Positions 17,984-31,376 of a DNA stretch of 33,131 bases are shown one piece after another; the first letter of the stretch is position 1, and each line of letters starts with the position of its first letter. The notes under the pieces are model-generated. The model ran no database searches and was not told the DNA's origin. It was given only the letters and a program-made list of their open reading frames with translations. The position numbers were made by a program, and so were the translations under genes. Source of the DNA: Syntrophobacteraceae bacterium. Lineage in GTDB: Bacteria > Desulfobacterota > Syntrophobacteria > Syntrophobacterales > Syntrophobacteraceae. Location of the stretch: positions 1 to 33,131 of the forward strand of contig PLSV01000306.1 in NCBI GenBank assembly GCA_003165235.1. Reading direction: 5' to 3'.

Positions 17984-18094
17984 CCTCGTATGATAGACGC
18001 ATAAACAACCCTGTGCGATGTATGAGCGCGTAGCGGGAAGGCCGACCGCTCGGCGTGCCTATCGTGGGCGTTGGGCCGTGCGCGGGAGGCCTTG
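17984..18094 (+). repeat. Structured dispersed repeat, copy R1
   Basis: This 111-bp element begins CCTCGTATGATAGACG and ends GCGGGAGGCCTTG. It aligns over its length with copies at 23764-23910 (minus strand) and 31248-31376. The core GCGTAGCGGGAAGGCCGACC is shared. Outer arms GATAGACGC and GCGT-GC-CTATC can pair, AGCGG and CCGCT form an inner hairpin, and AAGGCC in its loop is complementary to GGCCTT at the 3' end. It begins 42 bases after the GH57 stop and ends 95 bases before the CooT-like gene. Confidence 0.8.
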
Positions 18095-18189
18095 ACTCTT
18101 CCAAAGGTATTGAATATCGCCCCGAAAGCGTATTAGTATTACAGATGGTTCGAGATATGCTTGGAATCCTACTCATCAGGAGCTGAATA

Positions 18190-18375
18190 ATGTGTGAAGC
18201 AAATGCTTACTTTGTAAAGGAAGGCAAAGAGGAACTCATCCTGGAGGCGGTTGACAAAGTCGAGAGCGAGGGGGACCACATCAAGATCGAAAATATTTTC
18301 GGAGAGCAAAAAATGGTCCACGGGCGAATTCGCAGCATGTCCCTCGTGAATCACAGGATAGTGATCGCAGAGTAG
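18190..18375 (+). CDS. CooT-family small nickel-binding protein
   Basis: A 61-residue protein beginning MCEANAYFVKEGKEELILEA, followed by VDKVESEGDHIKIENIFGEQKMVHGRI and ending VNHRIVIAE. This is the CooT family pattern. In Rhodospirillum CooT, the cysteine at position 2 takes part in nickel binding for CO dehydrogenase maturation, and that cysteine is present here (C2). The family is widespread in anaerobes, including those without a cooCTJ cluster, and was earlier annotated as a predicted RNA-binding protein. No CO dehydrogenase gene is in the window, so the partner is unknown. AGGAG about 8 bases upstream fixes the start. Repeat R1 lies directly upstream. Confidence 0.87.
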   Translation: MCEANAYFVKEGKEELILEAVDKVESEGDHIKIENIFGEQKMVHGRIRSMSLVNHRIVIAE

Positions 18376-18438
18376 GGCGCCTAACGTCCTCGATGGGCAA
18401 TAGGCGCATGGCCCGCAAGGTCCCCCGTCCAGGAACTT

Positions 18439-19188
18439 TTACTTTTCTTCCTGCGGGGCCTTTGCAGTCTTCCTGAAACAGTACCAGTCGATCTGCCTGC
18501 AAATGCCCCGAATCAGTTGCACATCACGGCCGCGGAGCTGCATTCTGCTGAAAAACCGCCTGATGCTCTTCATCCAGTAATCGGGATTTTCCGGGTTTAT
18601 AAAATTGATCTTCGTCAGCGTGTCTTTCAACTGAACGTACATGGATTCGAGTTCGCCGCGGGTTGCAAGACGCGGCGTAAACCCCTCCTTTTTTTCGGAT
18701 GCGGCGGTGAAAATCTCATAAACCATTATCATGACGGCCTGCGCCAGGTTTATGGAGGAAAATTCGGCTGTCGGTATGGTGACCAGGGCATCGCAGTACG
18801 TGATATGTTTATTGGCCAGTCCGCTTGCCTCGGGGCCGAAAACAAGCGCGACATGGTTTTTCTGGCTGATGGGTATAAGTTCCAGGGCAAGTTGCCGGGG
18901 ATTTTTCACGAACTGGCGGTGAGATCCCGTTCGGGCGGTGCTTCCAACTACGTATTGAAAGGATTTAAGCGCCTCTTCGAGCCGGTCGTGGACTTCGATG
19001 GCCAAAACGAGGTCTTCTGCATGGTAAGTGGCCATCCTTAAAATCCGCGTAAGGTCGCAGTCGGCCGGATTTACGACCAAAAATCGCGAGATTCCCATAT
19101 TCTTGGCCGCACGAACCGCTGCGCCTATGTTTTCCGGATAATGAGGCTCATATAGCACGACGGCTATATGTTCGAGGTTTATTTTCAT
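18439..19188 (-). CDS. SPOUT-family RNA methyltransferase, TrmJ-like
   Basis: A 249-residue methyltransferase of the TrmJ/TrmH (SpoU) type, which 2'-O-methylates tRNA (position 32 in the E. coli enzyme). The SPOUT knot domain spans about 1-160: VVLYEPHYPENIGAAVRAAKNMG, LVVNPADCD, VVGSTARTG, and the SAM-binding segment VALVFGPEASGLAN with IPTAEFSSINLAQAV. The C-terminal ~80 residues form the helical extension seen in TrmJ (LESMYVQLKDTLTKINFIN, FSRMQLRGRDVQLIRGICRQ), and the total length matches E. coli TrmJ (about 246). The ATG at 19188 begins the conserved part; a longer frame to 19299 runs into hairpin repeats. It is convergent with the CooT-like gene. Confidence 0.88.
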   Translation of the reverse strand: MKINLEHIAVVLYEPHYPENIGAAVRAAKNMGISRFLVVNPADCDLTRILRMATYHAEDLVLAIEVHDRLEEALKSFQYVVGSTARTGSHRQFVKNPRQLALELIPISQKNHVALVFGPEASGLANKHITYCDALVTIPTAEFSSINLAQAVMIMVYEIFTAASEKKEGFTPRLATRGELESMYVQLKDTLTKINFINPENPDYWMKSIRRFFSRMQLRGRDVQLIRGICRQIDWYCFRKTAKAPQEEK

Positions 19189-19273
19189 TCCGCCTGGTTT
19201 TCTTCGTATTGGTCCACCACAGTTGCTTATGTCCCTGCGGGCCGCCACAAAAGAACTCCACGCTCCGCGAGAG

Positions 19274-19311
19274 CCCTGCCAACAGGGTCCCCGGATCAAG
19301 TCCGGGGGACC
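19274..19311. repeat. Tandem palindromes in intergenic DNA
   Basis: CCCTG-CCAA-CAGGG (19275-19287) is followed by the hairpin GGTCCCCGGA / TCCGGGGGACC around CAAG (about 19286-19311), and then another CCGGGG-containing segment. No T run follows on either strand. It resembles REP-type intergenic hairpins and lies between trmJ-like and the AbfD-like gene. Confidence 0.45.
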
Positions 19312-19445
19312 AGATCCGGGGCGGGCCTCGCCTGCGATGAACTCTCCGAAGCACAGGCGCTGAGGGCGTACAGTATTGCTGCTAAATGGGTTTCGATGGG
19401 CCGGGACAATCCTTGCCCGTGATAATCAATTGTCCATCACTCCAC

Positions 19446-20897
19446 CTAATCTTCTTCCATGCGCATAAGCTTTTTCGCCATCTTCTTTTTGGACTCAAAG
19501 TCGGTAAGGTAGGAAATCATTACCCGCTGGCTCTGAGGCGCCCCCGCTCCGTGCCAGGTGCCCGGGCCGTGGAGGCCGGCGGTCCAATGCTGGAGGAATT
19601 TGGCGACCTTGAAACGCTTGCCCGCAGGCGCTGCGCTCTGAAATAATTTCTTGAGCAAAGGCCCGACCTCGGGGTGATCGAGGTCCTTTATCCGTGGCAT
19701 TGTCACAAGGAGGCCGCCGCCGATATCGCCCGCAAGCTTCATGATTTCCCAGAAGCCGTGGGCTATGTTCAGCTTGGCTACGTTGCCGAACAGGTCGTCG
19801 GGCATGAAAACGCCCGAGCCCTGAGGTTCCTCCCTGCCCTTCGCCGCCGCTGCGATTGCGCACGCGTGGGAGGTTTCGCTCAGACGCACCATTTCTATCA
19901 GCTTGTCCTGGATGTGAGGTATCTTCTCTACTCCGCTGCATTCAGCCGCCATGACAGTCGCGCCGATTACGAGGTCGGCGAATCCCACCTTGCAGGCCCC
20001 TCCGCAGTTCATCCGGTGCGTTTTGGCGAATCTCGTAATCAGCTTTCCGCAGTACTTCGTTTCGCCACAAAGGAAAACCCTGTCCCAGGGGATGAAAACA
20101 TTGTCGAAAACCATGGTGGAGGTCTCGCGCTGGCCGAATACCGGGTTGCCAAGCTCCGATTCGTCTTGGGCCATCTCTCTTTCAGCAGAGTATGCATTGT
20201 ACTGGCATATGTAAGTCAGTCCGGGAGATCCGTTCGGGACGGCAAAGGCGACAGCGAAGTCCTCCTCGCCCTCCTTGAGCGCCCCGCCGGGCAAAACGAG
20301 CGTTTCGTGCGCGCCTATCGCTCCGCTCTGACTGACCTTTGCGCCCCTGACCACGATCCCGTCGCTGCGTTTCTCTGTGATGTGTATGTACACGTCCGGT
20401 TCGTCCTGCTGGGACGGGCGTTTTTTCCGGTCGCCCTTGGCGTCCGTTATCGCCCCGGAAACGGCCAGGTCCTTTTCCTGAATGCCGGCAAGCCACCTGT
20501 TGAAGCGCTCGTTGTACTTCGTTCCGAGGGTGCGGTCCATTTCCCATGTAGTGGATGCGAGGCCGTTTAATGCGTCGCAGCCGACGCAGCGGTAGTTGCA
20601 GGTGCCAACCGTCTGGCTGGTAAGCAGGGCCATTTCCTGCCGCATGTCCAGATCGTGATTGCTGCGGCAGACGTTAACGTTTCGGTTGATCGGGTTTCCG
20701 GTGAGGTGAGAGGTGGCGACCATCACGTTTTGGAACGGCTCTTGCTGCGCCAGGTCGTAAATGGCGGCATTGGCCATGACCATGGATCTGGTGATAGGAT
20801 GGTCCAGCAGGCTCGAAACCCATTTGCCGCCCACATAGACTTTAGGGCTGAGCTTCTTTACGCTTTCCAGGTATTCCTGGGAGGTCTTGAGGGCCAT
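19446..20897 (-). CDS. 4-hydroxybutyryl-CoA dehydratase-like (HpaB/AbfD family) enzyme
   Basis: A 483-residue member of the 4-hydroxyphenylacetate 3-hydroxylase/4-hydroxybutyryl-CoA dehydratase family (FAD, acyl-CoA dehydrogenase-like fold). Cysteines in GTCNYRCVGCDA (C100, C104) match the C99-x3-C103 cluster ligands of the Clostridium aminobutyricum dehydratase, which argues for a [4Fe-4S] dehydratase rather than an oxygenase. The second ligand region reads KTHRMNCGGACKVGFADL: H294 and C302 are 8 apart instead of 7 as I recall (H292, C299), and the position of the catalytic Tyr296 is a Cys. The substrate may therefore differ from 4-hydroxybutyryl-CoA. ATG 20897 has AGGA 7 bases upstream, so it is preferred to the start at 20927. 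It is divergent from a Nudix/beta-hydroxyacid dehydrogenase gene. Confidence 0.83.
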   Translation of the reverse strand: MALKTSQEYLESVKKLSPKVYVGGKWVSSLLDHPITRSMVMANAAIYDLAQQEPFQNVMVATSHLTGNPINRNVNVCRSNHDLDMRQEMALLTSQTVGTCNYRCVGCDALNGLASTTWEMDRTLGTKYNERFNRWLAGIQEKDLAVSGAITDAKGDRKKRPSQQDEPDVYIHITEKRSDGIVVRGAKVSQSGAIGAHETLVLPGGALKEGEEDFAVAFAVPNGSPGLTYICQYNAYSAEREMAQDESELGNPVFGQRETSTMVFDNVFIPWDRVFLCGETKYCGKLITRFAKTHRMNCGGACKVGFADLVIGATVMAAECSGVEKIPHIQDKLIEMVRLSETSHACAIAAAAKGREEPQGSGVFMPDDLFGNVAKLNIAHGFWEIMKLAGDIGGGLLVTMPRIKDLDHPEVGPLLKKLFQSAAPAGKRFKVAKFLQHWTAGLHGPGTWHGAGAPQSQRVMISYLTDFESKKKMAKKLMRMEED

Positions 20898-20981
20898 AAA
20901 GAGATCCTTTCGTTTGGGGGTGTGCATCGCTCGTCACTCGCCACACGGGATAGTAAATGATTTATCATATGGAAAAAAGAG

Positions 20982-20987
20982 TATAAT
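20982..20987 (+). promoter_or_regulatory. Candidate -10 hexamer upstream of the Nudix/dehydrogenase gene
   Basis: TATAAT at 20982-20987 sits in an AT-rich patch of the divergent intergenic region, 104 bases before ATG 21092. The -35 region (about 20959-20964, GATTTA) is poor. It is the only good -10 in the gap. Confidence 0.3.
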
Positions 20988-21091
20988 TAAGGTTTGGCGG
21001 CAAAGCCTTCGGGCAGTTTCGGGCTTTTCAGATAATGCGTTAGCATATAGACTGGTTGAAGTCCAGGTTTACCGGGGAGGCGCATATATTT

Positions 21092-22540
21092 ATGAACTTC
21101 CGCTTCTGTCCCCATTGCGGCGCTTCGCTTACAAGGACAGCAGAAAAAAAGGGAGTCAGGTCTTTTTGTCCTGATTGCGGCAAGGTTTTTTATCGTAACC
21201 CTACGGCAGGCGTCGCAGTTTTGCTGGTCGAAGGGGGAAAAATCCTGTTGGTCAAGCGCGTGGGATCATACGGCGGACGATGGTGCATTCCGTGCGGCCA
21301 CCTCGAGTGGGACGAGGAGGTGCGTGAAGCCGCCGGGCGTGAATTCTTCGAGGAAACCGGTATAACGGTGCGGGTTGGGCGGGTTTTTTCCGTTCACTCC
21401 AATTTCCACGATCCTGAGTCACAAACGGTTGGAATCTGGTTTTGGGGAACGCGCGCGGGAGGCCAACTCCACCCGGGATCGGACGCCAGTGAAGCCGCTT
21501 TTTTCAGCCTGGACGATTTGCCTGACCTGGCGTTTCCCACGGACAGAATTGTATGCAGGGAGTTGCAGGATTACTTTGAAGCCCACTTGTTTGAAAAGGA
21601 GGTTGTCATGCCCGGCAGCATTTATGAGGTTCCCGCTGTTTCTCTAAAAACGCGCATCGGATGGATCGGGACGGGGGTGATGGGGCTTTCCATGTGCGGG
21701 CACATTATGGAAAAAGGCTACAGCACTACCGTTTTCAACCGTACGAAGGAAAAAGCGCTCCCACTCATCGAAAAAGGCGCCGCCTGGGTTGATTCCCCTC
21801 GGGAAGCCACAGAAAAGTCTGACGTCATCTTTACCATGCTGGGGTTTCCTGAAGACGTGCGGGCGGTTTATTTTGGAAAAGGAGGCATTCTCGAGGCGGC
21901 CCGCCAGGGTGTCGTTCTCGTTGATATGACCACCACCGAACCATCGCTGGCGGCGGAAATCTATAAGGCCGCCAAGGAACGGGGGGCCTTCGCCGTGGAT
22001 GCTCCCGTCACGGGTGGCGACGTCGGGGCGCGCAATGCCTCTCTTTCCATCATGACGGGAGGAGATCGTGAAGTGGTTGAGGCCATTCAGCCCATCCTGG
22101 AAACAATGGGAAAAAACCCCGTCTACCAGGGACCTGCGGGTTCGGGTCAACATTCTAAAATGTGCAACCAGATCGTCGTCGCGGGAACGATGATCGGCGT
22201 CTGCGAAAGCCTCTTGTACGGTTTCAAGGCGGGCCTTGATCTGCCGACGATGCTGGGCTCCATCCAGGGCGGCGCGGCCAAGTGCTGGAGCCTGGACAAT
22301 CTGGCCCCACGTATACTGCGAAAAGATTTCGCTCCCGGTTTTTTTGTTGAGCATTTTATCAAGGATATGGGCATTGCGCTCAAGGAGTCGGCGAGTATGG
22401 GTCTTTTTCTTCCCGGTCTGGCGCTGGCCCACCAGCTATACATTGCGGTAAAGGCGCAGGGACACGGTAAGTCGGGCACCCAGGCGCTCATCCTTGCCCT
22501 TGAACAGATGTCCCGGACCGTGGCCCGGGAAAAAGACTGA
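21092..22540 (+). CDS. Zinc-ribbon Nudix hydrolase fused to beta-hydroxyacid dehydrogenase
   Basis: A 482-residue open frame with two complete enzyme modules. Residues 1-30 form a zinc ribbon (C6, C9, C26, C29). A Nudix domain spans about 38-165 with a perfect Nudix box at 69-91 ([20 protein letters not shown] then TGI), so it should hydrolyse a nucleotide diphosphate derivative. Residues about 188-482 form a 3-hydroxyisobutyrate dehydrogenase-type enzyme: Rossmann motif [10 protein letters not shown], substrate motif [13 protein letters not shown], and the catalytic lysine in [11 protein letters not shown]. This group includes glyoxylate/succinic semialdehyde reductases. At the junction, AAGGAGG (21596-21602) stands 5 bases before an in-frame ATG (21608), which could start a free 310-residue dehydrogenase. 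GGGGAGG upstream supports ATG 21092, with long spacing. It is divergent from the AbfD-like gene. Confidence 0.85.
21596..21610 (+). promoter_or_regulatory. Internal ribosome-binding site and start codon at the Nudix/dehydrogenase junction
   Basis: AAGGAGG is followed after TTGTC by ATG, in frame with the long fusion gene at residue 173. A TGA at 21592-21594 lies in another frame just before it. This is the layout expected between two separate genes, and it would allow independent initiation of the dehydrogenase module. Confidence 0.55.
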
Positions 22541-22645
22541 AAAGATTGACCGACGATCCTTCATCTGCGGCATTACCCGGCCGGCGTCCAATTCCGAGGT
22601 CATGCCGCAGTTCATTAAAGAGCTGATGCAAGCCGGATGCGATTT

Positions 22646-23503
22646 TCAGGCGCTCTGCTCGTCGATCTTCAACCACTTATCCAAATCCAGCGCTTTCGCG
22701 TATTCTTTGTATGTGAAGAGATCGTCCATTATCTCTTTGATGGAGCCGGTCTCCTTGAGGCTCACCACGACCCTTTCCACCGCTTTCATTGCGGCGAAGA
22801 GCGGGAGGTACCAGTAGAGCACCATCTTCACACCGGTTTGCTTCCATTGGTCCAGGGTGAAATCAGGTTGGATGAAGAAGTGTTCGGGGTCGGCGGCACA
22901 TACTACCAACGGGGCCCTTACCTCCCGGACAAGCCGCAAATATTGGTCAAAAGTATATAAGTCACCGACCATGGCCATGTCGGCCCCGTTTTCAATATAC
23001 ATATTCAGCCTTCTTATAGCTTCATCAATTCCTCCCACCACCTTGGAGTCGGTTCTGGCGATTACGACAAAGTCTCCATTTTTCCTCGCATCGGCTGCGG
23101 TCCTGATTCTTCTTGCGAATTGTTCCGCGTCGATGAGCCGTTTCCCCCGAAGCGCCGCACATCTCTTGGGAAAGGTCTGGTCCTCGAGGTGGATAGCGCT
23201 CACGCCTGCAGCCTCGAACATCCGGACGGTCCGGCAGATGTTGAGTCCTCCCCCAAAACCCGTATCGGCGTCACAGACGACCGGGACATTCACCACTCCG
23301 GCTATATTCCCGGCTTTCCTGACAATTTCCGTAACAGTGGTCAGTCCCAGGTCGGGGTACCCGAGGTCACTGGCTTCGTTGCCAAGCCCGGTCAGATACG
23401 CGAGCGGGAACCCCGCTTTCTCAATGATCTGGGCGGACACCACATCATAGGCGGCCGGGGCGATAATGACCTCTTCTTTATCCAACAGTTCTCTGAATCT
23501 CAT
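22646..23503 (-). CDS. Isocitrate lyase/PEP mutase-family enzyme (carboxyphosphonate/methylisocitrate lyase-like)
   Basis: A 285-residue TIM-barrel enzyme of the PEP mutase/isocitrate lyase superfamily, which makes or breaks C-C or P-C bonds next to a carboxylate. Metal-binding motif CDADTGFGGG has D78 and D80, and HLEDQ holds E107 and D108. The flexible active-site loop, usually K-(K/R)-C-G-H in lyases, reads KRCAAL at 113-118. C115, the proposed acid, is kept, but the following Gly-His is Ala-Ala. The N-terminus (IIAPAAYDVVSAQIIEKAGF, TGLGNEASDLGYPDLGL) matches members annotated as methylisocitrate lyase, dimethylmalate lyase or oxaloacetate decarboxylase. The precise substrate cannot be called. 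It is convergent with the Nudix/dehydrogenase gene. Confidence 0.86.
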   Translation of the reverse strand: MRFRELLDKEEVIIAPAAYDVVSAQIIEKAGFPLAYLTGLGNEASDLGYPDLGLTTVTEIVRKAGNIAGVVNVPVVCDADTGFGGGLNICRTVRMFEAAGVSAIHLEDQTFPKRCAALRGKRLIDAEQFARRIRTAADARKNGDFVVIARTDSKVVGGIDEAIRRLNMYIENGADMAMVGDLYTFDQYLRLVREVRAPLVVCAADPEHFFIQPDFTLDQWKQTGVKMVLYWYLPLFAAMKAVERVVVSLKETGSIKEIMDDLFTYKEYAKALDLDKWLKIDEQSA

Positions 23504-23763
23504 TTATGTTCTCCCTGTGGTAGATGCTTTAACGGCTCCAGAACCTGGCCGGCTTTTTCTAGAAAAAAAGCGCTGCCTGCAAACCCAAATAATACATCAA
23601 TGACCGCTAAGGGAATACTGAAGATTCATGAAAGCATTCAAGGCTGGCGAAATCCACCGGTCCCTATGCCATACCGGCAGCAAGGCGCCTTCTATTCCCC
23701 CTCCGACCAGAGCAGGATTATAATTTCCTTCCTGGCGGCTTCCATGGTAGTAAGGGCTGCCCT
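23504..23763. other. Intergenic region upstream of the PEP mutase-like gene
   Basis: No gene is supported. The minus-strand frame at 23597-23803 lacks a ribosome-binding site and partly reads through repeat R2. The promoter of the PEP mutase-like gene should lie here, but none was clear. Confidence 0.4.
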
Positions 23764-23910
23764 CAAGGCCTCCCGCGCCCGCCCGACGCGCATGATAGAC
23801 CATCCCGCGGTCGGCCTTCGCGCTACGCGGCGGACCTTCCGCACAGAGGCGGTAAGAGGAATGACCAGATTATTATCGCACAGGGTTGTTTATTGGTCTG
23901 TCATGCGAGG
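23764..23910 (-). repeat. Structured dispersed repeat, copy R2
   Basis: On the minus strand this 147-bp copy begins CCTCGCATGACAGACC and ends GCGGGAGGCCTTG, the same ends as R1 and R3. It shares ATAAACAACCCTGTGCGAT with R1 and has an extra internal segment of about 35 bases before the core GCGTAGCGCGAAGGCCGACC. Its outer arms GCATGACAGACC and GGTCTATCATGC are complementary except for one pair. It ends only 10 bases before the plus-strand ATG at 23921, so its edge supplies the GCGAGG that may serve as that gene's ribosome-binding site. Confidence 0.78.
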
Positions 23911-23920
23911 ATTGTGATAG

Positions 23921-25090
23921 ATGAAGCAGACTCAGGGATTACCCCGCGCCATAGAGTTGATGAATGCTTTTGCCGCTATGACCGGACTTGCGCCGGCGAG
24001 TGAGGCGCCAAGACGATACCTGTGGACCGATGCTTTTGCGGTTTGCAATTTCCTCGGGCTGTATCGGCAAACGAATGATGAAGAGCACAAAAAACTTGCT
24101 CTCCTGCTTGTCGATCAGGTCCATAACATTCTTGGACGGCATCGTGACGACGATCGGCGAAAGGGCTGGATCAGCGGTCTCGATGAGCGGGAAGGGGAAC
24201 GGCGCCCCACTGTGGGAGGACTGCGGATTGGCAAGAAAATGAACGAACGGGGCCCCGATGATCCTTTTGACGAGCAGCTCGAATGGGATCGTGACGGGCA
24301 GTATTATCACTACCTCACTAAATGGATGTACGCCCTCAACTGCGTCAGCTCGATCACGGGGGACCCGGCCTACGTACGGTGGGCCGTTGAGCTTGCAAAA
24401 ACGGCTTACGCCAAATTCACCGTTGGCCCTTCTTACGGAGACCAGAGACGAATGTACTGGAAGATGAGCATCGACCTGTCGTACCCTCTCGTAGCATCCA
24501 TGGGGCGTCACGACCCTCTCGATGGGCTCATTGTCTATTGTGAGCTTCAGGCAGGGTTGGCCGGAGGTTCGGAAGACTCTTTGGATCTGACCGGTGAAAT
24601 CGAAGGTCTGGCTGCCATGTGCAAGGGAAAAGATTGGACAACCGATGACCCTCTCGGTATTGGCGGTCTTTTATCGGATGCCTATAGAACAGCCCAAATG
24701 ATGGTGAGCGGAGCTTTTCCGCAGGCCGGTCTTTTAGCGGTCCTGTTGGACGCGTGCCGGCTCGGATTGCGCGCCTATCTGAGCACGGATTCGCTGGAAG
24801 CTCCGGCTCGGCGCCGGCTGGCATTCAGGGAACTGGGGGTTTCCATCGGGCTGCATGCTCTTGAAAGGTTGCAGCGGCTCATTGAAGGAAAGCCGGGCAT
24901 TTTCGACAAGGCGCCATCGCTGGCCAGGCAAGTTGAAATCCTGATGCGGTATGGACCTCTGGCGGAAATCATCGAAGACTTCTGGCTCGATCCGGCTAAC
25001 AGAGAGGCGCCCAGTTTTACGGACCATCGCGACATCAACACAGTCATGCTCGCTACAAGTCTGGCGCCTGACGGATACCTGATGCTCTAG
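23921..25090 (+). CDS. Conserved-looking helical protein, possible six-hairpin glycosidase-like fold
   Basis: A 389-residue cytoplasmic protein whose family I recognise only loosely. The sequence alternates amphipathic helices with short aromatic loops: YLWTDAFAVCNFLGLYRQT, GWISGLDEREGERRPTVGGL, EWDRDGQYYHYLTKWMYALN, YWKMSIDLSYPLVASMGRHD and HRDINTVMLATSL. Helix pairs carrying W/Y/D-rich turns are typical of (alpha/alpha)6 barrel proteins such as six-hairpin glycosidases, and the conserved acidic residues in DRDGQYY and SGLDERE could be catalytic. This is a structural guess, not a family match. There is no signal peptide. A weak GAGGA ribosome-binding site lies at the edge of repeat R2. The gene appears intact and monocistronic. 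Confidence 0.75.
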   Translation: MKQTQGLPRAIELMNAFAAMTGLAPASEAPRRYLWTDAFAVCNFLGLYRQTNDEEHKKLALLLVDQVHNILGRHRDDDRRKGWISGLDEREGERRPTVGGLRIGKKMNERGPDDPFDEQLEWDRDGQYYHYLTKWMYALNCVSSITGDPAYVRWAVELAKTAYAKFTVGPSYGDQRRMYWKMSIDLSYPLVASMGRHDPLDGLIVYCELQAGLAGGSEDSLDLTGEIEGLAAMCKGKDWTTDDPLGIGGLLSDAYRTAQMMVSGAFPQAGLLAVLLDACRLGLRAYLSTDSLEAPARRRLAFRELGVSIGLHALERLQRLIEGKPGIFDKAPSLARQVEILMRYGPLAEIIEDFWLDPANREAPSFTDHRDINTVMLATSLAPDGYLML

Positions 25091-25094
25091 GCGC

Positions 25095-25130
25095 TGCGGT
25101 CCCTCGCCGCTACGCGGCTCATTTCAGCGG
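25095..25130 (-). repeat. Degenerate relative of the dispersed repeat (R4)
   Basis: Read on the minus strand this contains ATGAGC-C-GCGTAGCGG-CGAGG-GACCGC, close to the core of R1 (ATGAGCGCGTAGCGGGAAGG then CCGACCGC). GCCGC-GTA-GCGGC forms a perfect hairpin. The outer ends of the R1-R3 family are missing, so it may be a decayed copy or a related hairpin. Confidence 0.4.
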
Positions 25131-25160
25131 TCGGCCACACGCGCTTGCGCGTGTGGCCGA
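25131..25160. repeat. Perfect 14-bp stem hairpin
   Basis: TCGGCCACACGCGC and GCGCGTGTGGCCGA are exact complements separated by TT. The hairpin lies between the helical protein ending at 25090 and the SDR ending at 25244, which converge. No T run follows on either strand, so it is either a factor-assisted or bidirectional terminator or part of the adjoining repeat. Confidence 0.7.
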
Positions 25161-25243
25161 AATCCTGGGGAGTGCGGGGTATCTTTAAAATGAAAAAAAT
25201 CCCCCGCTCAGTTTGGGGTGATTAGACGCTCTACGAATGCATA

Positions 25244-26017
25244 TTAGCGGCGCTTCGCGCCGGTAAGTCGTAACAGCCAAAGCACAAGCGCCGGCGCCAG
25301 GCGATAGCTCCAGCCGTAGAGCCGAAGCATGAAAGGATGCAGCGAATCGCGCCTCGGACGTTCTGCAAGTCGCGCGATTATACGGCCGCATTCGTCGGTG
25401 GACAAGGTCCGTATGGTATTGGCGATGCGCGGCATGTTCTCTGCTGCGCCGGGATTGTGTTCGTAGTATGGGCTGTTCACCCGGCCGAAGACGACGTTGC
25501 AGCTTCGGACTCCCGTGCCGCTGAGGTCCTGGCATAGGGATTCGTGCAGACCGCGCAGCGCCCAGCGCGCAGCCGCATAGCCTACCGACGACGGCCATGG
25601 AAAGATTGAAGCTGGTGAATTGACGTGGATGATCACGCCGGACCGGCGCGCCAGCATGTCTCGCATGAAAGCATGCGTGATATTGAAGGCCGCCAGGTAT
25701 GGCGCCTGCATCATGAAAAGCGCCTCAACTGGAGTCGTGTCCTCGATCAGCTTCCACTGTCCCGCGCCTGCGCAATTGACTATAACGTCCGGGCTGCCGT
25801 AGTTGCGCCGAACACGCTCTGCGAGCGTCAGCACATCTTCGCCGGAGGCGGCGTCACAAACCTCTACGGCCGCAGAGCCACCGACGCCGTTGGCGACACT
25901 TTCGAGCTCCGCGCGCCGTCGGGCAACCAAAATGACGCGGAAGCCTCGATCCGAGAGGTGACGGGCAGCGTCCGCCCCGATGCCGCTGGAGGCTCCAGTG
26001 ATCAGCGCAATCTTCAT
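25244..26017 (-). CDS. Short-chain dehydrogenase/reductase with Arg in place of the catalytic Lys
   Basis: A 257-residue SDR with the NAD(P)-binding motif TGASSGIG (7-14), RRR after the second strand (favouring NADP), NCAGAG at 81-86, and the active-site Ser S134 thirteen residues before Tyr Y147, as usual. The canonical Y-x-x-x-K reads YAAAR: the lysine that activates the tyrosine and binds the ribose is R151. The C-terminal ~30 residues are hydrophobic and basic (MLRLYGWSYRLAPALVLWLL), suggesting membrane association. The substrate is unknown. By eye the gene is more GC-rich than its neighbours, which may indicate transfer. It lies 91 bases upstream of the ferredoxin-type gene's end, on the same strand. 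Confidence 0.87.
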   Translation of the reverse strand: MKIALITGASSGIGADAARHLSDRGFRVILVARRRAELESVANGVGGSAAVEVCDAASGEDVLTLAERVRRNYGSPDVIVNCAGAGQWKLIEDTTPVEALFMMQAPYLAAFNITHAFMRDMLARRSGVIIHVNSPASIFPWPSSVGYAAARWALRGLHESLCQDLSGTGVRSCNVVFGRVNSPYYEHNPGAAENMPRIANTIRTLSTDECGRIIARLAERPRRDSLHPFMLRLYGWSYRLAPALVLWLLRLTGAKRR

Positions 26018-26108
26018 GAAACTGCTCCTCGGATCATGTCACCCAATGCCGGACCTAAGCCGCGGCCTGCAGGCTGTAGGCTGTAGGGTCATATGCCTGG
26101 GGCCGGCC

Positions 26109-27179
26109 TTAGGGTTTGGCCGTTCGCTCCTCAGCAATGCGCTGGGATCTTTCCATTTTGTTCAAAGGCGGTATGGATTTTTGCGCCTCGGGCTTTTCCT
26201 GAAGGCGTATCGCCTCTTCCGGACAGGTTGTAACGCAAAGACCACACCCGATACAGCGTTTGCGGAGGATAGAGGCAGACTCTCCATCCATTTCTATGGC
26301 CTCCATCTGACATCGGTCCATGCAGGTCCCGCAGCCGGCGCATAGCTCCTGGTCAATGGTTGCAAAATAATTCGATGCGGCATGATTGGCCGGTTCCGGA
26401 AGCCGTTTGAGATTTATGAGAATCTGGCAGCAGCACCCGCAGCAGGTGCATATATTGCTCACTTTTTGGGTGTTGGAAGGTTGTAGAACCAACCCGGCCT
26501 TTTCCGCCCGATCGAGTATCTCCAAAGCCTCCTGCTGATCGATCGGGCGCCCCAGCCCGTTTTCTTCGTAATATCGAGCCCCCAGGCCAAAAACCAGGCA
26601 GGCCTCAAGCGGCCTGTCACAGCCAGCGCCCGTCATCTTGTGCTCCCTTCTGCATATGCACGGAGCGACTATAATCTCATCCTCGCCGGAAATAATCCTG
26701 CGGGCCTCCTCATATGGCATTATCACCTGTTCGGCCGCGAGCGCCCTGGCGACGGGAATGGTCCGAAGCTGCGGGTTTTTCAACTGGCTGCTCTGTTTGG
26801 AAAAATAGGGCATGAATTCGCGCACATCTTTGATGAGACCCTCATCGAGGTCGTTTACGTGATACTCCCAGATGCCAACCATGAAGGGTGCGGCCATGTA
26901 TCGGACTTCCGGTCCTTTGCGGATCCGGAAGATCAAACCCTTGAGGGACATCTCTTCGAGCTTTAGGGCGGTGTTCGCGGGGTCGAGTCCGCTCCGGGCT
27001 GCGATGGCGCCCGGAGGTTCGGGCTTCTGGGTGACCAACTGAGCCAACGCGGCCTGCTCCGGGGTGAAAAGCCTGCGAAGGATGCGAATCTCTATTCCTT
27101 CCGGGGTCCGAGGATATCCTTCAGGAAGCCGGTCGAGGTGGTCCGCCAGTTTCTCATAGACTTCATGGCTTTCATCCAT
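26109..27179 (-). CDS. 4Fe-4S dicluster ferredoxin-type protein with N-terminal winged-helix-like region
   Basis: A 356-residue protein. Residues about 1-105 look like a winged helix (EQAALAQLVTQKPEPPGAIA, GLDPANTALKLEEMSLKGLI, then a wing EVRYMAAPF). A central cysteine-rich part follows (CICRREHKMTGAGCDRPLEA, then CTCCGCCCQIL). The C-terminus holds two classic [4Fe-4S] motifs, CAGCGTCMDRCQMEAIE and CIGCGLCVTTCPEEAI. Such proteins are common in sulfate reducers and syntrophs and are presumed electron carriers or redox-sensing proteins; the partner here is unknown. The ATG at 27179 has AAAGG 8 bases upstream. An alternative ATG at 27233 would add 18 residues including an extra CPGC, and cannot be excluded. 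It is followed on the same strand by the SDR. Confidence 0.85.
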   Translation of the reverse strand: MDESHEVYEKLADHLDRLPEGYPRTPEGIEIRILRRLFTPEQAALAQLVTQKPEPPGAIAARSGLDPANTALKLEEMSLKGLIFRIRKGPEVRYMAAPFMVGIWEYHVNDLDEGLIKDVREFMPYFSKQSSQLKNPQLRTIPVARALAAEQVIMPYEEARRIISGEDEIIVAPCICRREHKMTGAGCDRPLEACLVFGLGARYYEENGLGRPIDQQEALEILDRAEKAGLVLQPSNTQKVSNICTCCGCCCQILINLKRLPEPANHAASNYFATIDQELCAGCGTCMDRCQMEAIEMDGESASILRKRCIGCGLCVTTCPEEAIRLQEKPEAQKSIPPLNKMERSQRIAEERTAKP

Positions 27180-27590
27180 AACGCTTGCCTTTCCGTACGC
27201 ATCCCGCCACCGGGAAAGGCAGCCGGGACACATAACATTTTAGTTGTTCAGTTATTGTCGGATTCGCCCGTTCACCCCTTCTTCCCTCAAGGCGTCAATC
27301 ACCACGCAGAGGTCCCTGCAGAACTGGTTGAAGGTCCATAACGCCTTCCCTTTTTACATCTATAGATCATATAGCGCTACGATATATGTGTCAAGGGGAA
27401 AATGCTGCCGCAAGAACTCACAAGGCGAAATCGATAAGGGCTGGGCCATGGCCGGTGAAACAATCTCGACGCTCCGCGAGGCGGGGACCGCAACCGGGAT
27501 CGGCGGTCAAACCCTCGGATCAGAGCCTGTCCCTGACTCGAACCGGGGCTAGGGGCAGGCTTCGGCCGCCCCTGAAACCTTCTCCTTCCC
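27180..27590. other. Intergenic region between ferredoxin-type and phosphorylase genes
   Basis: No gene is supported; the plus-strand frames at 27244-27640 lack ribosome-binding sites. An AT-rich patch (27355-27395) may hold the leftward promoter of the ferredoxin-type gene. A hairpin pairs CCTGTCCCT with AGGGGCAGG (about 27522-27557) shortly after the phosphorylase stop, without a T run; it may help end phosphorylase transcription. Confidence 0.4.
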
Positions 27591-29222
27591 TTACCTGTAA
27601 TAGTTGCGAAAATACTCGAGCACCATCCTGTGGGTATTGAACTGAGGGGTTATGTCGGAGATGGACCGCCTCATAATGGATAGCCATTTTCTGGGGTTGG
27701 CATAGTAGGTCGTAACCATGTCTTCAAGGTCACGGTAGAGGTCGGCGGTGGCTGCTTCATCAGCCTGGTCCTCGTCGTCGCCTATGGCCCACCCATTCAC
27801 CCGGTCTTTGCAGGCTTCCCGCCACCATCCGTCCAGAACGCTCATATTTACTCCGCCGTTAAAGCAAACTTTCATGCCGCTCGTGCCGCTCGCTTCCCTT
27901 GGACGGCGAGGTGTATTGAGCCAGACGTCCGCCCCCGAAGTCATCAGGCCCGCCACCCAGATGTTGTAATTTGGAACAAATACCAGCCGAAGCTGTTTTT
28001 CGTATTGCTTCCCGATATTTACTACCGCCCGGATCAACTCTTTTCCTGCTTGGTCCTGCGGATGGGCTTTCCCTGCGAATACCAACTGCACTCGGTCATG
28101 AGACAGATTGAATAGAAATTCCAGATCGCTGAAAATGAGGGTTGCGCGCTTATAAGCTGCCGCGCGCCGCGCAAAGCAGATCGTGAGCTGTTCCTCTGTA
28201 AACCCTGCGGCGGACAGGGAATTTATGTATCTTATGAGCCGCTTTTTGGCCTTCCTTTTGGCCTCGACGATGTCGTTGTCCGGAATTGCGGAAATGTCAC
28301 CGAGTTGTTGGGGGTCCTGCCGCCAGGCCGGGAGGTATTTGTCGTATAGATCCCTGAATTCAGGGCCGGTCCAGCTCAGGTGGTGCACGCCGTTTGTGAT
28401 GTGGGCGATGTTGAACCCTGGAAACATCTGCCTGGATATTTCCCCGTGCAGTTGACTCACCCCGTTTGCGGCGCGCGACAAATTGAGGGCCAGAACGGTG
28501 GTGTTTAGAATATCGCCGCCAGCAAGTTTCCTGATATTTGAGGGCAGGTATTCCCCGATTACCTTCCATGCGAGGTTGTAGTCGAATTTATCGTGGCCGG
28601 CGGCGACCGGTGTATGCGTTGTGAAGACGCACCTCGATCTTACCTGCTCCTCGTCTCCTCGAAGGTCCTTGAGCATGGCGAGAGTGAGGAAGACCGCGTG
28701 CCCCTCGTTCATGTGATAGGTGGTGATTTGCGGCTCCAGGCGTTTGAACGCCAGGTATCCGCCGATTCCCAGAATCGCTTCCTGCGATATCCGGGTATGC
28801 TGGTCTCCACCGTAGAGATACTGGGTTATGAGCCGGTCTTCGGGCGCGTTTCCCGGAAGATCCGTGTCGAGAAAATAGACCGGGACGCGTCCCGATCCGG
28901 TCTCGTTATGCATCCCAACCACGTTGTGCTTCCAGACGCCCACCTGCACGTCCCGGCCTTCGATCCTTACGGTCACCTTGAGCGGCAGAGGCTCCATGAA
29001 CGCGCGCGGGTCGAAGTAAGGGTACATCTCTTCCTGCTGCCCAAATGGGTTTATATTCTGGATGAAGTAGCCCCGCTTGTAGAGAAGAGTTACGGCGACC
29101 AGCGGGATGCTGAGGTCGGCGGCGGATTTGATGTGGTCCCCGGCCAGAATGCCAAGCCCTCCGCTGTAGGTCGGAATGCTTTCATTGAGCCCTATTTCCA
29201 TGCTGAAGTATGCGACTTTCAT
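27591..29222 (-). CDS. glgP: Alpha-glucan (glycogen/maltodextrin) phosphorylase, short form
   Basis: A 543-residue GT35 phosphorylase that releases glucose-1-phosphate from alpha-1,4-glucans using pyridoxal phosphate. It starts MKVAYFSMEIGLNESIPTYS with GGLGILAGD, the N-terminus of the short bacterial and archaeal type that lacks the long regulatory region of about 800-residue enzymes. Other conserved parts are HMNEGHAVF, FTTHTPVAAGHDKFD, HITNGVHHLSW, FARRAAAYKRATL, and the PLP site EASGTSGMKVCFNGG with its lysine. All look intact. It is monocistronic and divergent from a radical SAM gene; upstream lie purine-rich heptamer repeats. With the GH57 protein it implies glycogen turnover. Confidence 0.92.
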   Translation of the reverse strand: MKVAYFSMEIGLNESIPTYSGGLGILAGDHIKSAADLSIPLVAVTLLYKRGYFIQNINPFGQQEEMYPYFDPRAFMEPLPLKVTVRIEGRDVQVGVWKHNVVGMHNETGSGRVPVYFLDTDLPGNAPEDRLITQYLYGGDQHTRISQEAILGIGGYLAFKRLEPQITTYHMNEGHAVFLTLAMLKDLRGDEEQVRSRCVFTTHTPVAAGHDKFDYNLAWKVIGEYLPSNIRKLAGGDILNTTVLALNLSRAANGVSQLHGEISRQMFPGFNIAHITNGVHHLSWTGPEFRDLYDKYLPAWRQDPQQLGDISAIPDNDIVEAKRKAKKRLIRYINSLSAAGFTEEQLTICFARRAAAYKRATLIFSDLEFLFNLSHDRVQLVFAGKAHPQDQAGKELIRAVVNIGKQYEKQLRLVFVPNYNIWVAGLMTSGADVWLNTPRRPREASGTSGMKVCFNGGVNMSVLDGWWREACKDRVNGWAIGDDEDQADEAATADLYRDLEDMVTTYYANPRKWLSIMRRSISDITPQFNTHRMVLEYFRNYYR

Positions 29223-29332
29223 CAGGCGGGTTTCGCTCCTGTGGTCTGATTGTTTACAGATTTGAACCTGAACTTATATCACACCGCCGGTGGTTTTGAA
29301 AAAAAACATGCCGCCATAACGGACGGGTTTTT

Positions 29333-29372
29333 TCTTCCCTCCGTCTTCCGTCCTTTGTCCTCCGTCCTCCGT
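29333..29372. repeat. Purine-rich heptamer repeat tract
   Basis: On the minus strand this reads as iterated 7-mers of the form GGACGGA, GGACAAA and AGACGGA. A similar tract occurs on the plus strand at 32917-32956. It lies in the gap between phosphorylase and the second radical SAM gene and encodes nothing recognisable. Confidence 0.55.
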
Positions 29373-29445
29373 GTATTTATCTTTGCTCCTAAGATTTGCG
29401 GTAAAATGTTACCATGAGGATCTGAAAAAGAACCGGGGAAAAACC

Positions 29446-30729
29446 ATGCGCGCGCTGCTGATTTCAGCCAATACCGAGCAACTTCAGATGCCTGTCCTGC
29501 CGATGGGCCTGGCGTGTGTCGCTGCAACGGCCGAGCATGCAGGCCATGAAGTCAGGCTTTTGAACCTCATGACGAAAGACGAGCTTCAGGAACTAACACT
29601 TGAAAATGCCGTTTCAGGTTTTAATCCTGAACTTATCGGGGTTTCGGTCAGAAACATCGACGATCAGTTCATGAAGTCTCCCAGGTTTCTTCTGGATGCC
29701 GTAAAAAATGTCGTGGCTTCCTGCCGCAGACTCACGTCGGTCCCTATCGTTCTGGGAGGAGCGGGATACAGCATGTATCCTCGAAGCGCACTGGCCTATC
29801 TTGGAGCGGACATGGGGATAAGAGGCGAGGGAGAAGCCGTTTTTGTGAAGCTGTTGAACGCACTTTCCCGAAAAGAGGACCTGGCCGTCGTTCCGAACCT
29901 GGTTTTGGCTGAGTCGGGCCGCGAAAATAAGACCGAGGTCCTAAAAAGGCTCGACGACTCCGTGTTGCCCGATCCCAACGGCCTGTTTTCATTTCCCACC
30001 GAATTCAAGGATCAGAAAATCTGGCTTCCTTTCCAGACCCGGAGGGGCTGCCCGATGGAATGCAGTTACTGTTCGACCGCAACCATAGAGGGGCGGATTT
30101 TGCGGAAAAGGTCCCCTGAAATTGTTGCCGATTCAATTTCACGGTTCGCTGAAGCAGGGTTTAAGAATTTTTTCTTTGTGGACAATACTTTTAATTTTCC
30201 TGCCTCGTATGCACGTGAGCTTTGCGGCGCGCTGGCCGGGAGAAATCTGGAAATCCGGTGGCGCAGCATACTCTATCCCTGGAAAGTCGATGAGGGTCTT
30301 ATCGAAAGGATGGCCAGGGCAGGGTGCGTCGAAGTGGCCCTCGGATTTGAGAGCGGGTCGAGGAAAATATTGCGTTCGTTCAACAAGAGGTTTCAGCCTG
30401 AAGAAGTCCGTATGATTTCGGAAATGCTTGACAAATACGGAATCGGGCGAATGGGGTTTCTTCTTCTCGGAGGGCCGGGAGAGACCAGGGAAACAGTCGA
30501 GGAGAGCCTGGAGTTTGCGGATTCTCTCGAATTGGAAGCAATGAAGATCACCACCGGAATCCGGATTTATCCATATACGGCCTTGGCCGCAGCCGCTGTA
30601 GCCGAGGGGGTTGTTTCACCCCCTGACAATCTCCTGCGTCCGGCGTTTTATCTGGCCGCGGGGCTTGAAGGTTGGATAGAGGAAAAGGTTTCCGATTGGC
30701 TCAAAAGAAGACCCAACTGGCATAGTTGA
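29446..30729 (+). CDS. B12-binding-type radical SAM protein
   Basis: A 427-residue radical SAM protein with an N-terminal cobalamin-binding-like domain (about 1-145: MRALLISANTEQLQMPVLPM, GLACVAATAEHAGHEV, LIGVSVRNID, VLGGAGYSMYP, GIRGEGE). The radical SAM core (about 190-390) has C202, C206 and C209 in RRGCPMECSYCST, then FFVDNTFNFP, VALGFESGS and LLLGGPGETRET. This layout is shared by methyltransferases and ring-modifying enzymes of the B12 radical SAM class. The product is unknown, and it is only distantly similar to the other such protein at 9623. GGGGA about 8 bases upstream supports ATG 29446; the longer frame from 29371 begins in non-conserved sequence. It is divergent from the phosphorylase. 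Confidence 0.85.
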   Translation: MRALLISANTEQLQMPVLPMGLACVAATAEHAGHEVRLLNLMTKDELQELTLENAVSGFNPELIGVSVRNIDDQFMKSPRFLLDAVKNVVASCRRLTSVPIVLGGAGYSMYPRSALAYLGADMGIRGEGEAVFVKLLNALSRKEDLAVVPNLVLAESGRENKTEVLKRLDDSVLPDPNGLFSFPTEFKDQKIWLPFQTRRGCPMECSYCSTATIEGRILRKRSPEIVADSISRFAEAGFKNFFFVDNTFNFPASYARELCGALAGRNLEIRWRSILYPWKVDEGLIERMARAGCVEVALGFESGSRKILRSFNKRFQPEEVRMISEMLDKYGIGRMGFLLLGGPGETRETVEESLEFADSLELEAMKITTGIRIYPYTALAAAAVAEGVVSPPDNLLRPAFYLAAGLEGWIEEKVSDWLKRRPNWHS

Positions 30730-30763
30730 AGGTCCTGCCGCCCCGGCCGGGGGAGACGCAAAT

Positions 30764-30830
30764 ATGCCGAAAGTCACGATCCACCCCGCAAGCTATGAAA
30801 CTATCCGCGCTGTAAACAGGAGGATGAAAA
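30764..30830 (+). pseudogene. Possible 5' remnant of a DUF362-type gene
   Basis: An ATG at 30764 preceded by GGGGGAG opens a frame MPKVTIHPASYETIRAVNRR that resembles the start of DUF362 iron-sulfur proteins as I remember it. After about 20 codons the frame runs through the holin-like gene and loses any family look. It may be a truncated gene start, or a coincidental leader. Confidence 0.25.
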
Positions 30831-31226
30831 TTGAAAGGTATTATGATAAGATGGCTGCTCCTGACGATTTCGATTATTCTTACCTCTTACCTGGTCGACG
30901 GCATATATGTCGCGAGCTTCTCTGCGGCCCTTTTCGCCGCGTTGGTGCTCGGCGTACTGAATGCCCTGTTCCGGCCGATACTGATCATCATCACCCTTCC
31001 GATCAATATCCTCACTTTGGGCCTTTTTACATTCGTTATAAATGCCCTGCTTTTGAAAATGGTCTCAGGAGTAGTTCCCGGCTTTTACGTCCATGGGTTC
31101 TGGTCGGCAGTTTTCGGCTCTGTCATAATCAGCCTCGTGAGTTGGTTGCTCAGTTCATTTGTCAATGAGAGGGGCAGGATCAGTTACATCGAGCTGAAGA
31201 AAAAGAACGGGGATTTCTGGGAATAA
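30831..31226 (+). CDS. Membrane protein of the YvlD/phage holin 4 superfamily (PF04020-like)
   Basis: A 131-residue protein with four hydrophobic segments at about 5-22, 28-45, 48-70 and 88-108. The family landmarks LVLGVLNALFRPILIIITLP and INILTLGLFTFVINALLL are those of the small four-helix membrane proteins annotated as phage holin family 4 or YvlD. Despite the name, chromosomal members are not phage genes and have no proven function. Two starts are possible. TTG at 30831 has a perfect AGGAGG 7 bases upstream; ATG at 30843 has AAAGG 4 bases upstream. TTG is preferred on the stronger ribosome-binding site. Repeat R3 begins 21 bases after the stop. Confidence 0.87.
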   Translation: MKGIMIRWLLLTISIILTSYLVDGIYVASFSAALFAALVLGVLNALFRPILIIITLPINILTLGLFTFVINALLLKMVSGVVPGFYVHGFWSAVFGSVIISLVSWLLSSFVNERGRISYIELKKKNGDFWE

Positions 31227-31247
31227 CGGGCGTGAAATGCCGGCCCC

Positions 31248-31376
31248 CCTCGTATGATAGACTTATATAGTACACTACCTAAGAGAATAAGCACTGTGCG
31301 TCGTATGAGCGCGTAGCGGGCAGGCCGACCGCGCGACACGTCTATCTGGCGCGTTGGGCGTTCGCGGGAGGCCTTG
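31248..31376 (+). repeat. Structured dispersed repeat, copy R3
   Basis: This 129-bp copy has the same ends as R1 (CCTCGTATGATAGAC and GCGGGAGGCCTTG) and shares CTGTGCG, then GTATGAGCGCGTAGCGGG and AGGCCGACCGC. Its outer arms GATAGAC and GTCTATC are exact complements. It differs from R1 mainly in the AT-rich segment after the left arm. It lies between the YvlD-like gene and the small gene at 31469, with 92 bases to the latter's ATG. Confidence 0.8.

Follow-up and report, generated by a model that had tools for sequence, protein, structure and literature searches.

A dispersed structured repeat family found in one Syntrophobacteraceae genome and resembling REP and IS200/IS605 elements

The contig PLSV01000306.1 of a Syntrophobacteraceae bacterium, analysed here at its full length of 33,131 nucleotides (the window), carries three copies (R1, R2 and R3) of a short repeat with conserved ends, a conserved core and a variable middle. 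The family is very probably mobile: insert-free versions of its sites exist, its ends are sharp and about 120 copies occur in one genome only, which agrees with the non-autonomous mobile element that a first-pass annotation of this DNA had listed among its options. By analogy with known systems, the repeats are most plausibly (probability about 0.55) a non-autonomous REP/IS200-IS605-like element, which would move as single-stranded DNA by means of a Y1 HUH enzyme acting in trans. Such a mechanism is preferred because the right end shares the tetranucleotide GTAG, a guide directly 5′ of a stem and CCT directly 3′ of it. The structure supported by sequence comparison is one helix, running from the core to the 3′ end and first target base, and its two sides change together between subfamilies.

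Distribution of the repeat

With as many as 3 mismatches allowed, the core pattern was found at 86 places in the 7.07-Mb host assembly (37 of them exact) against 2 for a reversed-pattern control, while the left-end pattern gave 70 matches (0 in the control) and the right-end pattern 104 (1 in the control). A covariance model built from 26 copies matched 132 host places at E<=1 and 123 at E<0.01, and no copy was found with it in 38 other genomes of the same order, ten congeners included. The proposal that the window copies belong to a dispersed family is borne out by these pattern and model matches, which lie far above chance. The copy counts are lower bounds since the genome search scored 150 of 1823 first-look candidates in the host and 88 in each other genome. 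No additional copy came from another 0.58 Mb of host DNA, and blast of 40 genomes, host included, returned nothing outside the host better than E=0.068. Five single exact matches in GTDB contigs from unrelated taxa were taken as chance, without a computed expectation, and the family was not found in viral contigs and plasmids. Seven congeners were aligned over the orthologous gap on the downstream side of the DUF3536 gene, and each of them lacks R1 there, the alignment being too diverged to place the junction to the exact base.

That the repeat belongs to no known named family agrees with Rfam, which gave 0 matches above the gathering cut-off in the window and none in six loci at E values up to 5, and no earlier description of such a repeat family was found in the open-access literature. 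The host assembly has 8.88% contamination and is larger than those of the ten congeners (3.7–5.5 Mb); this may reflect a mixed bin or a genuine enlargement of the genome. Window DNA matches the congeners across many stretches at about 64–83% identity.

Element ends and insertion sites

From 1.1 Mb of fetched host DNA we obtained 124 nhmmer hits, corresponding to 123 distinct and 104 full-length copies; 102 of these had both ends anchored (L122p5214 and L158m4633 were dropped) and 101 also had a typed core (L089p14723 was dropped). The elements are about 100–218 nucleotides long and contain no genes. In the 102 anchored copies the left end is [T]CCTCGTATGA and the right end is GCGGGAGG-CCT. In the left flank T at −1 carries 0.30 bits and all other positions at most 0.14 bits, nearly random over 25 positions; in the right flank the first three bases carry 0.65, 0.66 and 0.42 bits and the following ones at most 0.08. 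The element ends are sharp, with the flank signal confined to one base on the left and three on the right.

Variation in the middle arises in two ways. The 5′ and 3′ segments exist in alternative forms, which are combined differently with the core types (the second 3′ segment is present in 30 of the 101 typed copies), and an independent hairpin repeat of about 36 nucleotides is nested in 13 of the 101, at more than one position. The different lengths of the window copies had been attributed to one internal segment; part of the extra length of R2 is this nested hairpin repeat. By crude open reading frame (ORF) calls the placement of the family is not cleanly intergenic, as 64 of 123 copies were overlapped over less than one fifth of their length and 41 over more than half, the ORFs covering more than half of a copy being mostly short, with some of 240–560 codons.

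For each of the 102 anchored copies the two flanks were joined and used as a query against the fetched host DNA. Seven copies gave spanning matches, one of which (L145p3473) was set aside, as another copy of the family forms its left flank. Six copies thus match insert-free versions of their own sites in the same genome, representing four target sequences:

Target 1, CCCC-CCTTG-AAGTTC, common to two copies (C184 and C221), with an empty version elsewhere on C184
Target 2, GTC-CCCTC-AGTG, which holds the C368 copy
Target 3, CAT-CCTGG-TGGAAG, which holds the C361 copy
Target 4, which holds two related copies lying in a repeat, with empty versions AATT-CCT-CT-TGG and, less often, CCT-TT-TGG and others

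The filled sites have CCT at both junctions, with one-base variants in CCC left of the C368 copy and CAT right of the C361 copy, and in targets 1–3 the right-hand triplet is followed by two bases of the target. Over all anchored copies CCT stands at the left junction in 84 of 102 and at the right junction in 90 of 102, whereas the empty sites contain it once.

A miniature inverted-repeat transposable element (MITE) of a double-strand cut-and-paste DDE transposon, which targets CCT and leaves a 3-bp CCT duplication, would fit both the CCT that flanks most copies on either side and the single CCT of the empty sites. We nevertheless consider this decidedly unlikely. No terminal inverted repeats were seen by eye, the left end CCTCGTATGA and the reverse complement of the right end CCAGGCCTCCCGC having at most CC/CCTC in common, and such an element gives no reason for the core to pair with the first target base. 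Non-CCT triplets (18 of 102 on the left, 12 of 102 on the right) are identical on both sides in one copy only (TCT/TCT), which later mutation could also explain. At the C368 site the target reads CCC, and the filled site has CCC to the left of the element and CCT to its right. Assigning the left triplet to the target and the right one to the element requires 2 changes instead of 4 and is the better reading. Direct repeats of 2–10 nucleotides were not notably more common than in permuted flanks (the greatest excess being 3 copies vs 0.4); this comparison cannot assess the constant CCT and leaves some room for a 3-bp CCT duplication.

Core:end helix and guide base

The core, (C/A)AGG-CC.GACCGC or one of its subfamily variants, pairs with the 3′ end of its own copy and usually with the first target base as well. 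The helix comprises 12–14 nucleotides per strand around a loop of roughly 30–80 nucleotides. In types A and B it is interrupted by two mismatches (GA/GA in 40 of 53 A copies and 9 of 13 B copies). It takes the following forms:

Type A, CAGGCC-GA-CCGC with GCGG-GA-GGCCTG
Type B, AAGGCC-GA-CCGC with GCGG-GA-GGCCTT
Type C, GAAGGC-GA-CCGC with GCGG-GAT-GCCTTC
Type D, GAAGGCATCCC with GGGATGCCTTC
Type E (a mixed group of six copies), most clearly GAAGGCGCCCCGC with GCGGGGCGCCTTC

Four nucleotides upstream of the helix lies GTAG, present in 78 of the 101 typed cores, with GTGG in 2 more; in REPs GT[AG]G stands at 0–2 nucleotides from the stem foot. The mean duplex energy of a core with its own end (RNA energy parameters, 101 copies) was −18.24 kcal/mol. 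When ends were shuffled over all 101 copies the mean was −15.73 kcal/mol (standard deviation 0.23, best of 300 shuffles −16.45), and when they were shuffled within subfamilies it was −17.71 kcal/mol, with 0 of 300 shuffles reaching the value of the own ends. The pairing of AGGCC with GGCCT, which had been proposed from the window copies as a loop-to-end pseudoknot, holds as a pairing and co-changes between subfamilies; the pseudoknot does not hold, the pairing being part of the longer nested helix. The inner hairpin AGCGG/CCGCT described in R1 competes with the core:end helix and is not preserved in core types B, C and D.

For the outer arms GATAGAC/GTCTATC, complementarity was confirmed and co-variation was not. 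The arms of the 71 copies that carry the first type of 3′ segment gave −8.12 kcal/mol compared to −5.33 kcal/mol for the shuffled domain, and when partners were swapped among copies the value was −7.96 kcal/mol, with 62 of 300 swaps at least as good as the own partners. The proposed pseudoknot therefore lacks comparative support. The first-pass annotation had named many copies without covariation in the stems as the finding that would tell against it, and this is what was found for the outer arms and not for the core:end helix. Four copies, R1–R3 included, fold no better than dinucleotide shuffles either as DNA (z 0.15, −1.33, 1.00 and 0.45) or as RNA (z −0.83, 0.09, −0.20 and 0.39). Mutual information over a MAFFT alignment was set aside, as subfamily structure dominates it (effective number about 10).

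The coordinates, strands, shared ends, core and lengths (111, 147 and 129 nucleotides) first given for the three window copies were confirmed. At the 3′ ends the shared end stands and the final two bases (TG) are better assigned to the flank, by analogy with the empty sites of other copies, which gives the shorter preferred elements below:

17984–18094, + strand: R1, A-type core, 111 nucleotides as drawn; preferred element 17987–18092
17984–17986 and 18090–18092, + strand: R1 junctions, the CCT that precedes the element and its terminal CCT
18030–18033, + strand: R1 core GTAG tetranucleotide
18038–18049, + strand: R1 core:end helix, 5′ strand, AAGGCCGACCGC, AAGG being the proposed guide
18082–18093, + strand: R1 core:end helix, 3′ strand, GCGGGAGGCCT plus the first flank base T18093
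23764–23910, − strand: R2, B-type core, 147 nucleotides; preferred element 23766–23907
23807–23818, − strand: R2 core:end helix, 5′ strand, AAGGCCGACCGC
23765–23776, − strand: R2 core:end helix, 3′ strand, GCGGGAGGCCT plus the first flank base T
23836–23874, − strand: R2 nested hairpin repeat of about 36 nucleotides, ATAATCTGGTCATTC..TTACCGCC..GCGGAAG
31248–31376, + strand: R3, A-type core, 129 nucleotides; preferred element 31251–31374
31321–31332, + strand: R3 core:end helix, 5′ strand, CAGGCCGACCGC
31364–31375, + strand: R3 core:end helix, 3′ strand, with the first flank base T opposite a core C

In 86 of 97 classifiable copies the core base just 5′ of AGG is the Watson-Crick partner of the base that immediately follows the right-hand CCT (C-G 40, A-T 43, G-C 3). 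The other combinations were C-T 4, C-A 2, A-C 2, A-G 1 and G-T 2, and in four copies the core base could not be read. Fisher's test on the C and A rows gave p=3.6e-18, a value inflated by the relatedness of copies within subfamilies. Because the base is target-derived in three of the four empty-site cases, the correlation reads as choice of target by pairing. Judged by sequence, the copies possess, at the right end only, a trait that characterizes IS200/IS605 elements: a tetranucleotide that precedes the foot of the hairpin on its 5′ side and, as a guide, is complementary to the cleavage site or target. With about 100 readable insertions, four empty targets and apparent natural switches of guide and target, a base-pairing model of target choice is made testable.

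A related reading is that the whole element of 100–218 nucleotides is a lineage-specific minimal mobile nucleic acid, a guide that pairs with its own end and with the target and whose guide base is re-programmed with the landing site, and that all copies are moved by one enzyme acting in trans, which may be an RNA-guided recombinase or a divergent Y1 HUH enzyme. We regard this as unlikely.

Proposed mechanism, candidate enzymes and related systems

E. coli TnpAREP is described as cutting at CT 5′ or 3′ of the REP and as needing GTAG and a stem with two mismatches (PMC8266576). Two further papers describe that IS608 picks its target by base pairing, in a manner which can be re-programmed (PMC5934647), and that the guide tetranucleotide sits just 5′ of the hairpin foot (PMC6006769). 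In the single-stranded mechanism which we favour, the enzyme would recognise the structure formed by GTAG and the stem and would cut after (C)CT at three places, namely the left flank, the right end and the target. The guide would be the tetranucleotide on the 5′ side of the stem (CAGG, AAGG or GAGG), and a change of guide base in a subfamily would change the preferred target between CCTG, CCTT and CCTC.

An intact REP-associated tyrosine transposase (RAYT) is encoded in the host at C66:2535-2933 (L068, L181). It scores 98.5 bits with NF047646 against a cut-off of 80, and its best solved relative is TnpArep 4er8 (E=1.8e-8). Matches to this family were found in 10 of 11 genus genomes including the host, 7 of 11 being over the cut-off. 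No family copy was found beside a RAYT gene at the loci examined (C66 and C402 on both sides, C221 on the 3′ side, and other Y1 hits within the fetched loci); the best similarity in 700-base flanks of the transposase loci was E=0.087, and a loose right-end match (2 mismatches) lies beside the C156 fragment. Truncated left-only copies, read for a hidden transposase, look like decayed ones.

Several observations weigh against the Y1 HUH reading. With respect to the enzyme, the C66 transposase gene is flanked by a different GTAG hairpin repeat, of the form GTAGNNTAGCCCCTTGTGGGCG, and 9 of 10 congeners match NF047646 (6 of 10 over the cut-off) yet lack the repeat. A REP-associated transposase in most congeners means that its presence does not explain the confinement of the repeat to the host. 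No transposase was present in any copy read from this incomplete assembly, and among the matches listed for the left- and right-end patterns outside the model hits no end pair surrounds a gene. With respect to the element, its length of about 100–218 nucleotides and its loop exceed those of REP/REPIN repeats, palindromes of 20–50 nucleotides with a short loop, 12 of 15 D-type cores have ATAG, no left-end guide could be assigned from the left flanks, and GC skew on the element strand was positive in 54 of 123 copies, which gives no replication-strand signal. With respect to pairing, R1 and R2 obey the guide rule and R3 breaks it, the first base of target 4 (TC) fits only the minority CCTT variants, and, given shared ancestry, the guide switches need not all be independent. 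RNAalifold on alignments of 26 and 16 copies, selected for an identical core, gave one co-varying pair each with an unfavourable covariation term, a pair which had nonetheless been the first pointer to the core:end helix. The invariant core columns in alignments A1 and A2 are true by construction, since the loci were chosen by exact core match, and are not evidence.

The hairpin repeat GTAGNNTAGCCCCTTGTGGGCG has 4 matches in 1.68 Mb of host DNA, and together with the C66 gene it constitutes a candidate REPtron.

A classical REP family moved by one of the REP-associated transposases of the host would resemble the repeats in the high copy number in one genome without coding capacity, the GTAG upstream of a GC-rich stem with two conserved mismatches and the CT at the inferred cut sites, and REP-associated transposase genes are present. 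It is quite unlikely in our estimation, as size and loop fall outside the described REPs, no copy occurs at the transposase loci checked, and the C66 gene has a different REP of its own; the correlation of a core base with the target base is a further difference from REP/REPIN systems. With IS200/IS605 elements and PATEs the repeats have in common the lack of a clear target duplication, a short target adjoining the left end, and an internal tetranucleotide 5′ of a stem that pairs with the right end and the target. They differ in that the copies read contain no transposase, no left guide was found, one long right-end stem takes the place of two small subterminal hairpins, and the pairing includes the +1 target base.

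An IS110-like system, in which a bridge-RNA-guided recombinase joins the CT core of target and donor and the element is hardly more than a guide RNA gene moved in trans, is very improbable. The CT kept at both junctions and the internal segment complementary to the right end and first target base resemble IS621, for which PMC11208160 describes a bridge RNA with right guides, a shared CT core and an analysed nine-base left guide. Set against that guide, the left flanks of our copies are almost information-free; the flanks show a read-out of a few bases and not a guide-matched target of about 11 bp as in IS110/IS621, and the IS110 search of the host genome returned a single truncated transposase domain (39.8 bits).

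In the traits that can be assessed here the family works like REP and IS200/IS605. It is neither a member of the REP group nor a demonstrated IS200/IS605 derivative, because size and RAYT linkage do not agree with the former and none of the copies read holds a transposase. The BOX elements of Streptococcus pneumoniae, likened here by description, are presumably similar in being modular, with conserved ends and a variable middle, about 100–200 nucleotides long and present in more than 100 copies. The present family differs from them in that its insertion site and guide-target relation are readable. Integron attC sites, group I/II introns, HDV-like ribozymes and TnpB/IscB guide RNAs were dropped by eye on their general features, with Rfam also giving no match.

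RNA function or mobile DNA

The first-pass annotation had also allowed for a cis- or trans-acting RNA, that is a cis regulator or small RNA family that was duplicated and for which mobility is incidental. The co-changing of the helix between subfamilies is in favour of a functional non-coding RNA, as are low counts of private changes at two places: the 10-nucleotide GTAG core CGCGTAGCGG has 3 singletons vs 15.5 expected (P=1.4e-4) and the 3′ helix strand of the C+D group has 1 vs 4.9 expected. A lenient core filter may be partly behind the low core count. On the helix strands of two A groups singletons were at about the expected frequency, and in the A-Y group they were uneven (3′ middle 14 vs 25.1 expected, left end 11 vs 5.5 expected).

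We nevertheless find such an RNA improbable, and this option was weakened by absence of an Rfam match, folding no better than shuffles, lack of compensated change and an antisense bias, along with unrelated window neighbours and absence from relatives. Over the nine inner helix pairs of the A subfamily, a count which leaves out the outermost, target-facing pair, there were 36 one-sided changes, of which 30 break the pair and 6 give G.T. None of the 477 cells held a compensated change, and the one cell changed on both sides is unpaired. Decay of single copies without compensation in the inner helix argues against RNA function of each copy, and compensation between lineages with none within copies is expected if only replicating master elements need the pairing. 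Next to co-directional neighbours (ORFs of at least 200 codons) 18 copies lie sense and 42 antisense (42/60, p=0.0027), a bias that tells against a cis-regulatory RNA in each copy; either selection or an insertion bias may be its cause. A repeat that is structured and has a co-varying helix can thus mimic a non-coding RNA family and yet be mobile, which is relevant to RNA discovery pipelines.

As a separate observation, the low private-mutation count of the core CGCGTAGCGG is at odds with neutral decay.

Window neighbours and other repeats

In a Pfam scan of the window neighbours 18 of 20 chosen ORFs matched ordinary chromosomal families of unrelated function. The window also contains, at 25101–25241, a second dispersed repeat with strong hairpins (CCGCTACGCGGCTCATTT, and GGCCACACGCGC..GCGCGTGTGGCC). 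This repeat has two other matches in the host and, among the congeners, at least 14 in G005 (matches listed), one in G002 and one in G006, and it has short motifs in common with the family described here (reverse complement GCGTAGCGG, GGCCGACC).

The hairpin repeat of about 36 nucleotides nested in R2, ATAATCTGGTCATTC..TTACCG(C/G)C..G(C/G)CGGAAG, shows a compensatory stem change and also stands alone outside the family; besides window positions 23836–23874 it was seen at L107, L165, L167, L260 and L261. A further dispersed repeat, AGAAAATAATTCCTCTTGGTTCTATCGCTTCGCG, occurs at L138:4271, L260:15947, L244:9627 and L131:5353-5416; it served as a landing site, and it often adjoins GTGAGCAGTGAACAG-like simple repeats.

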